The notes beneath the pieces were generated by a model. The model was not told the origin of the DNA. It made no database searches and worked only from the letters and a program-made list of their open reading frames with translations. DNA of 64,000 nt from Syncephalastrum monosporum B8922 (taxonomy: Eukaryota; Mucoromycota; Mucoromycetes; Mucorales; Syncephalastraceae): the NCBI GenBank assembly GCA_000697355.1, contig JNEN01001206.1, positions 310,001-374,000 on the forward strand, written 5' to 3'. Below are positions 54,901 to 57,192 of the stretch, piece by piece. Both the position numbers and the translations under genes were made by a program. The first letter of the stretch is position 1, and the number at the start of each line of letters is the position of its first letter.

Positions 54901-55667
54901 TACGAGGGGAACAAGCGCAGCGATGCGGCATTCATTATGGTGACGCACATCCAGACTGGCAAAGATACGCTTCTGGAAATGATCGATATCGTCCTGTAGA
55001 TTCATCAGGTCGCTGATGGTCTCAAACCTGGGTACACGACAAACACAGTTGTAAGCACGTACGGAATGGAAGGGCAGGCTGTTCATACCCTTCGTTCGGA
55101 TCATCAATGTTTTTGAGACTGATATACTCCTCATAGTCAAAAGTGCCGTTGAACTCGGGATGGGTGCGGTGGAAACGCAGTTTGTGGAGCAAGAACTGGA
55201 CATAATTCTTGATGAGCGAGCCGTAGCCACGAAATCCATCGGCGGTGACGCTGTGTGCCACGGTTTCCAGCCACGACGTCTCTCGTAATGCATCTTTGAT
55301 GACCTGGGCGGGTAGGACCTTTTCAATGCGCGTGTAACATGGCTGAGAAGACTTACGATAGGATGGCCGTCCTTGATAATCTTATGCACCATGATTAGAG
55401 CCTTGAAGGTCTGCACTTCATCCGACAAGAGGGGCTGCACCTTGAGGATGTTCCATATAATTGCCGAGGTGCGATGATCCCAGGTATACACAATGCATTC
55501 TGTCATGGCCCCCATCAGATTCGTCTTTCTTCTTCTTTCACGTTGTCTGCATATGATCACTCACTGCGCACATGTTTCTGTTTCGGGGCTGTTTCGTCTG
55601 CATTGGTAGCTTTTTTGATGCTTTGGGCAAGCTCTGCTTCGGCTCTATCCGCACTCACATACGACAT
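51952..55667 (-). CDS. sla2: Sla2/End4 (Hip1R) endocytic actin adaptor
   Basis: Eleven exons (55565-55667, 55357-55499, 55089-55303, 54843-55027, 54261-54793, 54109-54202, 53809-54050, 53505-53729, 53379-53453, 53243-53321, 51952-53180) close to 1040 aa. ANTH domain ~1-265 (CIVYTWDHRTSAIIWN, VHKIIKDGHPI, GFRGYGSLIKNYVQFLL), a Pro-rich bit (TPPLPKRP), a long Gln-rich coiled coil (~290-720), and the C-terminal I/LWEQ (THATCH) actin-binding module (~800-1030; ERLELAAKAVKDCSAELVKQ, KILKLDAELVNARRVLAEMR). It links PIP2 and clathrin light chain to actin in endocytic pits; needed for polarised growth. The third exon start was chosen to avoid a 38-nt intron. Confidence 0.97.
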
Positions 55668-56253
55668 CCTCGGTCAACCGCAGTCAAAACACTCTATCAT
55701 CACAACTAGCTTGGATAGACTCTGCCCGAATCGACAATAAACAAATTCGATCAATTTTTAATGCGCCTGCCTTTATTTTTGACAGTTGTTATCCGGCAAT
55801 ATCTTGCTTTGTTGAGTGAAAGGATTCCATCATGACATGTGCTCTAGAGTAAAGCACTTGGTTACTTACCACAAAGACCTGACTAATAAATTCACTCTGC
55901 TGTCAGGATCCTCTCCATGATATTGAGTGGCAGTTGCATTCGGTTTGGGTGTGCTTCATGCAACGCGAAATGAGACGTCTCTTTGTGTGAATCTATGACC
56001 TACAAGAAGAAGGCATCAGAACACCTTTAAAAAAGAGAACCGAAAGTTGAGCATGCTCAAGGAACTCTTCCTTTCAAAACCATGGTAAGTAGCAAGAAAA
56101 AGAGACCAAGAATTTCCTCAACCACTCAAAGGGCGACACAAAAAACGCGTCGTGCTGTGCATGAAAAGCCAAAAAAAAAAAAAGATAAAATTGCCCGCCT
56201 TTTCTTCTCTGTATTGTTCTTTATCATTTTCACTATTGCATAAAAAAAAGATT
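55668..56253. other. Upstream region of sla2, downstream of the ribozyme
   Basis: 586 bp between the ribozyme 3' end and the sla2 ATG (same strand). It contains T8 and T12 runs on the minus strand (56242-56249 and near 56172-56183), several of which would end Pol III transcripts. No ORF or retroelement coding sequence was seen. Confidence 0.5.
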
Positions 56254-56333
56254 GGGTGCCTCTTAGCCGTCCTACCCGAAGGTAGTCCGTTGCCCGAGGA
56301 CCATCGCTTGGAGATGGGCACCCGTCGATCCTC
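56254..56333 (-). ncRNA. HDV-like self-cleaving ribozyme
   Basis: The minus strand, 5' to 3', gives every element of the nested double pseudoknot. P1 GAGGAT (56333-56328) pairs with GTCCTC (56301-56296). P2 GGGTGCC (56323-56317) pairs with GGCACCC (56260-56254), 7 bp. P3 CATC/GATG has loop TCCAAGC, the same size and UCC start as the HDV L3 loop. The joiner is GGGCAAC (56295-56289), able to form P1.1 with the CC of L3. P4 is CTACC-TTCG-GGTAG with a tandem G.A extension. J4/2 is GGCTAAGA (56268-56261 region), where the C would be the general acid. Predicted cleavage is just 5' of G56333. A T8 run follows at 56249-56242. HDV-like ribozymes are known in retroelements and as single genomic copies; no retroelement ORF is visible here. 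Confidence 0.93.
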
Positions 56334-56607
56334 TTCCGCACTTCACTGTTTTTAAAACCATTAAGGCCGATTGGAAGGGGAGCCCATCACTGAGCCCTGG
56401 CTAGGGGCCTCCGGGCAATCTGAAGATCCGGATAGTGTCCAACCCTGCGTTTCTTTATACAAGCCAGGCTGCGCATGCGGTAGTGCAATGCATGAGCTGT
56501 CGAAACTTGTCTGCTTCATAGGGTCTGAGGCCTCGCCATCCCCGGGATACCCTCCACAAATTGAATAAAGAAAAGAAAAGAAAAGCGAAGAGGCGAAAAA
56601 AAAGACG
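56334..56607. other. 5' flank of the ribozyme, structured and GC-rich
   Basis: Unlike the AT-rich surroundings, this stretch is GC-rich and non-coding, with short hairpins (e.g. TCCGG / CCGGA near 56410-56435) and, on the minus strand, TATA-like GTATAAAG near 56452-56460. It probably belongs to the transcript that carries the ribozyme. No known RNA family recognised. Confidence 0.4.
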
Positions 56608-56624
56608 CGTTTATATAGTTTTTT

Positions 56625-56704
56625 GACGCCTGAGAGCGAAAAAATTGTTACCTGTAGCCAATGAGGTTTCACGTTGGTGAAAATATTTTTCACTCTCAGG
56701 CGTC
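56625..56704. repeat. Foldback (inverted repeat) with U4-like loop
   Basis: GACGCCTGAGAG (56625-56636) is perfectly complementary to 56693-56704; after one C.A mismatch the pairing continues G-C and five A-T pairs. The ~45-nt loop holds GTAGCCAATGAGGTTT (56654-56669), identical to the 5' stem-loop core of U4 snRNA as I recall it. A TATA-like TTTATATAG lies at 56610-56618 just upstream. The rest does not fit U4, so a complete U4 gene is not claimed. Could also be a small foldback element. Confidence 0.6.
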
Positions 56705-57192
56705 AGGTGAGAATGACGCGTGTGAGTGTGAGTGCTGCGGCAGGTGCTGTGGTGGGTGGGTGAAAAGAAAAGAAGTGAAAGAGTCCACTGTGAACAGGAA
56801 GAAGTAGACATTACAATGAATCTATGGCAATCTGAGTATCGGAGAAACCGTGTAACACCGCTCTATTGTGCCTAGAATAAACTTTGAAGTTGCTACACGT
56901 CGTGCACATGTTTGTATGCATACAAATAAACTGTACATGAAAGAAGATAATTACAAAGTGCTGTTCTGTGAGATGTTTTGTAGTATGCTCTCACACAGCA
57001 GATCCACTAGAAGTCTTGGTACGTCACGTAGCATGTAAACTACGGGGATGATATGTGGTCTGTGCGTTGTACTATATTAGTCTGAACACAAGCTGCCGCT
57101 CCAATAATAAGACGTTCAATGGTTTCAGTGTCGCATATGAATATCGGCAAGACCAAGGCTACGTGACATGCGGTTTATCTCGAGGACTCGCG
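56705..57192. other. Intergenic, no supported gene
   Basis: AT-rich, no ORF with family features. Confidence 0.4.

Follow-up and report, generated by a model that had tools for sequence, protein, structure and literature searches.

To our knowledge, most natural HDV-like ribozymes described so far belong to HDV-like agents or to the 5' ends of retroelements, and their roles in host genomes are largely open. An earlier note, made from the letters of the DNA, described such a ribozyme upstream of the endocytosis gene sla2 in a stretch of 64,000 nucleotides from Syncephalastrum monosporum B8922 (the window). Three roles were offered for it: it may trim a non-coding transcript, cut long sla2 leaders, or be the last trace of a retroelement. 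The locus thus raises the question of whether the ribozyme is genuine and, if so, which RNA it would serve. The gene had been named correctly, its product carrying ANTH and I/LWEQ domains. Near the ribozyme there is also a HAS1-type helicase, with 90% identity to a Rhizomucor pusillus protein, the best named match among the 120 listed.

The ribozyme occupies positions 56254 to 56333 on the minus strand of the window, the strand of all window features given below unless stated otherwise, and was assigned from its alignment to the Rfam HDV family RF02682, a by-position reading and covariation. P1 is formed by 56327-56333 with 56296-56302, P2 by 56317-56323 with 56254-56260, P3 by 56313-56315 with 56303-56305 and P4 by 56281-56289 with 56268-56276. 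The catalytic C of J4/2 is found at 56266, and the predicted cut site lies 5' of G56333. The elements named in the earlier note (P1 to P4, the joiner and J4/2) are all present in these places. Its fold and positions stand; two helix lengths do not, P1 having 7 bp rather than 6 and P3 3 bp rather than 4, because the copies C35, C76 and C83 (see below) have U-A as the seventh P1 pair, which precludes the proposed fourth pair of P3.

Several details can be read across the copies. The catalytic C is invariant in 18 copies and in C181, J4/2 of C172 and C181 reading GGCAAAGA. An extra nucleotide between P2 and P3 is C or U in all 18 rows, and the pair at the cut site is G-C in 12 of the 13 distinct rows and G-U in C181. 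The letters are suitable for P1.1 (L3 with J1.1/4), yet invariant across copies. The tandem G-A/A-G positions of P4, which might belong to a loop E motif, are retained, with A-A in the C44 row. Single-strand folding, which is uninformative for this kind of fold, returned a pseudoknot-free structure (z -1.17, 26 of 200 shuffles equally good).

The RF02682 model, which represents one bacterial subfamily, spans exactly 56254-56333 of the minus strand with 29.2 bits and an E-value of 0.0032 in a search of 1,001 bases; this falls below the curated gathering score of 44, and Rfam at gathering thresholds gave no match in the whole window. In the control set of the RF02682 genome search, 8 of 14 bacterial and archaeal genomes contained matches at E<=10, none of them above the cut-off, so that weak E-values with this model are no proof of a ribozyme by themselves. 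RF01788 had no match in the genome, which is uninformative, since its controls had none either, and one scan of viral contigs with an exact ribozyme pattern yielded zero matches.

Stronger evidence comes from the genome itself (27.5 Mb in 198 contigs), and all copies discussed here were compared within this one Mucorales genome. The core pattern GGGCAAC-N10-30-GGCTAAGA occurs there 18 times, compared with one occurrence of the reversed control. These sites comprise 17 copies of the family described below and C98, which is not matched by the 381-base family probe; C172 and C181 deviate from the pattern by one base. Counts across copies are not independent, the copies being mutually related, and with this in mind 18 of them, giving 12 distinct rows, pair in 99.0% of cells, with 11 cells altered on both sides against a shuffled mean of 2.6 (0 of 500 shuffles as high); sliding the partners by 1-3 columns reduced pairing to 29-51%. 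When C181 was added, the 13 rows had 15 both-side changes against 3.9 in shuffles (again 0 of 500 as high). In both row sets taken together, the 99.0% pairing of the named structure compares with 29-57% in slid versions. In the 13 rows, four pairs of P1 and two of P2 carry compensatory changes, while P3 and P4 are almost invariant and hence say little about covariation. The count of further pair types stayed within the shuffle range (421 and 273 of 500 as high). Promoter and 3' flank of 17 copies, with C172 and C181 left out, gave a tree of low resolution, in which 3 of 14 inner branches have good support; these branches require at least 2-3 changes of P1 type. A covariance model made from the 18 copies scores those same copies at 117-131 bits, by construction; C181, which is outside the model, reaches 80 bits with P1 and P2 letters that are divergent and still paired. 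Because the core pattern so exceeds its control and because P1 and P2 covary, the HDV-like fold goes beyond chance, and to judge from these comparisons of letters the window holds a genuine one.

The earlier note had treated this ribozyme as a lone element, which does not hold, since it recurs at 18 further places as part of a gene family. A 381-base probe that starts close to the TATA box and stops shortly after the ribozyme found 21 stretches at 19 places, the window included: 15 near-full copies, three partial ones (C44, C58 and C172) and a weak match at C181, counted for its ribozyme part. The number of ribozyme-bearing copies is at least 19, the genome searches having scored the best candidates. 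Damage is seen in C172, which has lost most of its promoter, in C44, which lacks the TATA box and one P2 base, and in C58, where part of the body is gone. A promoter probe without the ribozyme recovered 18 of the 19 places (C172 in part) and, beyond these, 50 bp at C180. This last piece is a truncated copy of the upstream region (L071, C180:4900-5900), which abuts a stretch that to the eye resembles part of a reverse transcriptase; no Pfam family matched the 48 residues of it that were searched, and the reading was not accepted.

The unit has a constant order: an upstream region with a TATA box, a GC-rich body of about 200-250 nt, the ribozyme, a run of 6-20 T and AGTAnAAATGATAAA or a close variant of it. 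Relative to the cut, the conserved region starts at about -560 and the TATA box lies near -284. In the window, the conserved upstream region, probably the promoter, covers 56663-56893. Next to it, at 56658-56662, is an ATTGG motif, which we take to be a CCAAT-type element; in the alignment it belongs to a CTCATTGGCTACAGG-type stretch, which differs by one base in C58 and is missing from C172. A possible snRNA-type proximal element, AATTTTTTC, follows at 56638-56646, named for its likeness to stretches upstream of U1, U2 and U5 genes, and the TATA box TATATAAA at 56610-56617; the latter is altered in C76 and C83 and lost in C44 and C172. The RNA body, of class A, would extend over 56334-56582, its start being placed at TATA + 36 by analogy with U1 and U2. 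Downstream of the ribozyme, a T8 run resembling a Pol III terminator occupies 56242-56249 and the snRNA-type 3' box AGTGAAAATGATAAA 56220-56234. The promoter part also contains an inverted repeat, CCTGACGCCTGAGAGTGAAAAA ... CGCTCTCAGGCGTC (56621-56708), which is largely retained in the copies and is perhaps a paired protein-binding site. A match to mir-85 on the plus strand at the same positions (E 0.39, far below cut-off) reflects this repeat and was dismissed.

Identities were calculated for 15 copies, the damaged C44, C58 and C172 being dropped and C181 left out. Mean identity is 73.0% beyond -560 and 91.0% in the upstream region, 86.9% in the TATA region, 78.7% in the body, 95.1% in the ribozyme and 87.9% in the T-run with the box, and it falls to 65.2% beyond. 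The bodies are of two classes. Class A (C136, C155, C82, C193, C91 and C35) has bodies of about 249 nt, the nine class B copies have 201-211 nt and C58 has 148 nt, all counted from TATA + 36. Within class A (six copies) the body is 98.8% identical, compared with 73-77% in the flanks, and the ribozyme 96.3%; within class B the body is 86.5% identical. The difference between within-class and overall identity implies that the body is class-specific yet not freely drifting. Its consensus fold has both-side changes in 2 of 38 pairs, that is, little covariation. Rfam searches of two copies, one per class, gave no match to the body up to E 1, the ribozyme alone being matched in the class B copy. Longer flanks of up to 1-2 kb, fading near -1,550 and +455, are common to ten copies and, as far as alignments can tell, look like duplication of DNA rather than of RNA.

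What kind of gene this is can be judged from the snRNA genes of the same genome (U1, two U2, two U5 and four U6), with which the family has in common a TATA box and a downstream AAATGATAAA-type element. AAATGATAAA is found behind U1, both U2 and two of the four U6 genes, and the variant AATAGTACAAAATGAAAAA behind both U5 genes; in the remaining two U6 genes the box is absent from the 43-49 bases of 3' flank examined. There are in fact two kinds of U6 gene, C36/C102 and C141/C149 (L074-L077), with different promoters and 3' flanks, and the box occurs in the C141/C149 kind only. In 16 of 18 ribozyme copies the last P2 base is followed at 22-27 nt by the start of ATGATAAA, from which C73 and C58 differ by one base. 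A matrix built from the snRNA genes alone ranks the window site second among 127,972 window positions. Other copies score like 2 to 69 window positions, C181 poorly (949 as high). Genome-wide, AAATGATAAA has 202 occurrences against 78 for its reversed control. It is found at identical positions (14118 and 31903) in contigs C10 and C11, which may be assembly duplicates and may slightly inflate copy counts elsewhere.

The likeness extends beyond the box. With two U6 genes the family shares the T-run and its spacing to the AAATGATAAA-type element, and 33 nt of 3' flank, including the T-run, align between C176 and a U6 gene. When the 3' flanks of four copies were compared with those of the two box-bearing U6 genes, the scores were above all 500 shuffles; against U1, U2 and U5, 0-81 of 500 shuffles were as high, which is less secure, and against the two box-less U6 genes 17-335 of 500. 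On the promoter side, a stretch similar to AATTTTTTC lies 20-24 nt before the TATA box in U1, in one of two U2 and in one of two U5 genes; the remaining U2 and U5 genes and all four U6 genes showed no such stretch. In the family, the T-run of at least five in this element is present in 11 of 17 copies, and a scan of the window with the pattern of this element gave one match, with none in 100 shuffles. The ribozyme sets the family apart, as it was not seen in the U1, U2, U5 and U6 stretches, and the family body has no Rfam match.

The T-run bears on the choice of polymerase. A run of 6-20 T starts 1-6 nt past P2 in 18 of 18 copies, and in C181 T6 follows P2 immediately. Runs of five or more T are absent from 5,241 nt of putative transcript and number 72 in 14,400 nt of flank (18 related, GC-rich copies). 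As a pattern of letters this fits Pol III, and either polymerase is possible for the unit.

Two further families of HDV-like ribozymes were noticed in the genome. One, on contig C183, consists of three near-identical copies (L063 721-781, plus strand; L064 5008-5068 and L065 4984-5044, minus strand) with a different body. ATGATAA is found within 60 nt downstream in all three, and the snRNA-gene matrix scores 12.9, as high as 15 window positions. The other has ribozymes of about 60 nt without a long P4 (L059 1922-1981 and L061 8801-8860, minus strand; L060 4962-5021 and L062 3489-3547 and 5921-5979, plus strand), some of them close to contig ends. Box, T-run and TATA box are absent nearby in all five, and no ORF resembling reverse transcriptase was noticed by eye in the ORF list.

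We think it probable that the window contains one of a family of 19 snRNA-type ncRNA genes whose 3' end is made by a built-in HDV-like ribozyme. This proposal builds on the fold with its covariation, the constant layout, the 3' box common to snRNA genes and the conservation of body and ribozyme above the flanks. Each gene would be transcribed from its own snRNA-type promoter. The polymerase would pass through a structured body of about 200-250 nt and then through the ribozyme, and transcription would end at the T-run, at the snRNA-type 3' box, or at both. The ribozyme would fold once the 3' strand of P2 emerges and cut before G56333, which would free a body RNA whose single, precise 3' end bears a 2',3'-cyclic phosphate; the ribozyme and the U-rich tail attached to it would be discarded. 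What we infer here is that the RNA is cut in the cell, which polymerase makes it, where exactly it starts and that the body is the working product. Of the three roles offered in the earlier note, trimming of a non-coding transcript is the favoured one.

One rival is a mobile element. Dispersed copies would also be expected of a non-autonomous retroelement or its remnant, in which the ribozyme would mark where the mobile RNA begins, as it does in R2 or L1Tc; some retroelements do carry an HDV-like ribozyme at the 5' end, according to the parts of the account consulted (PMC8256844). The truncated C180 copy adjoins the stretch resembling reverse transcriptase mentioned above, unconfirmed by Pfam over 48 residues, and a piece of a DDE_3 transposase lies beside copy C155. 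This mariner-like ORF piece (L023) is situated about 1.1-1.8 kb upstream of the C155 ribozyme, and none was seen by eye beside other copies. Against such an origin, an external promoter well ahead of the ribozyme opens the conserved unit, which extends little beyond the ribozyme, and the promoter travels together with the ribozyme. At their estimated edges five copies lack direct repeats longer than 6 nt, three of them having 6-nt matches, four copies lack 10-base inverted ends, and Pfam found no reverse transcriptase domain in 12 flanking ORFs or ORF pieces, of which seven long ORFs had no Pfam match at all; most of the 142 flanking ORFs of at least 90 aa were read by eye only. We therefore do not favour the last trace of a retroelement and consider a retroelement origin quite unlikely. 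The copies could instead be segmental duplicates of one old locus, mostly decaying and unexpressed, and the long flanks common to ten copies, the damage in C172, C44 and C58 and the truncation of C180 speak for this. Decay, however, is at odds with the 99% of ribozyme cells that still pair and with unit segments of 79-95% identity where flanks drop to 65-73%, which makes this reading decidedly unlikely.

Two other explanations accept an active ribozyme and assign it different work. The polarity of the unit could be the reverse, the body being a removed leader and the working RNA the 3' product, a folded ribozyme with an oligo-U tail. Indeed, over the 15 intact copies conservation is highest in the ribozyme, at 95.1%, with the body at 78.7%, and the T-run right after P2 would leave a compact RNA of about 90 nt. 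Within class A, however, the body (98.8%) exceeds the ribozyme (96.3%), and the conservation of the ribozyme is already accounted for by its own pairing constraints; we regard reverse polarity as unlikely. The window copy could also be a cis-regulatory ribozyme that cuts the sla2 leader, as it shares the strand of sla2 and precedes the proposed start codon at 55667 by 587 bp, a distance that agrees with the sequence. The same promoter-body-ribozyme unit is nevertheless present, with its own terminator-like end, at 18 other places and, where examined, by other genes, among them an F-box-like ORF, a DUF1604 ORF and a carnitine acyltransferase, the last on the opposite strand. Cutting of long sla2 leaders is not favoured on these grounds and seems to us most improbable.

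The proposal of an snRNA-type gene ended by its own ribozyme has its counterpoints as well. The body varies between classes, the box of C181 scores poorly and two U6 genes have no box; moreover, there are 202 genomic AAATGATAAA sites, the T-run of the proximal element is found in 11 of 17 copies, and 2 of 38 body pairs covary.

HDV-like ribozymes of fungi have been surveyed before. In the sections covered, a 2017 screen in BMC Genomics reports 230 fungal HDV ribozymes in 26 species, and two constructs from its variant screen were shown to cleave (PMC5640933). In the same sections, these fungal variants share with our family the HDV-class fold, the extra nucleotide between P2 and P3 and an irregular P4; they typically have C-G at the cut, where the window family has G-C, and widely variable gene associations are described for them, with no fixed gene of promoter, body, ribozyme and box (PMC5640933). 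With the ribozymes of R2 and L1Tc the family has in common the catalytic fold and dispersed copies; in the parts of that source consulted, however, the retroelement ribozyme makes the 5' end of the mobile RNA, while in the window family it occupies the 3' end of a short unit whose promoter is external (PMC8256844). In the open-licence literature we found nothing on natural ribozymes in snRNA-type or Pol III ncRNA genes, and nothing on HDV ribozymes in Mucoromycota; either may be described elsewhere.

Self-trimming of the tail of its own RNA would be an undescribed job for a ribozyme of this kind. We see about an even chance that these loci form a new class of Mucorales snRNA-like ncRNA genes, in which a built-in ribozyme and not a protein nuclease makes the 3' end and a class-specific body does conserved work, and that the second ribozyme family (C183, three copies), which is unrelated to the first, may use the same order of body, ribozyme and box. 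If true, HDV-like ribozymes would have one clear and testable host role, sited where the 3'-processing site of an snRNA-type gene belongs, and the laboratory trick of terminating an RNA with an HDV ribozyme would have a natural counterpart. The finding also brings into view an uncharacterised multicopy ncRNA and, for the snRNA genes of Mucorales, a 3' box.
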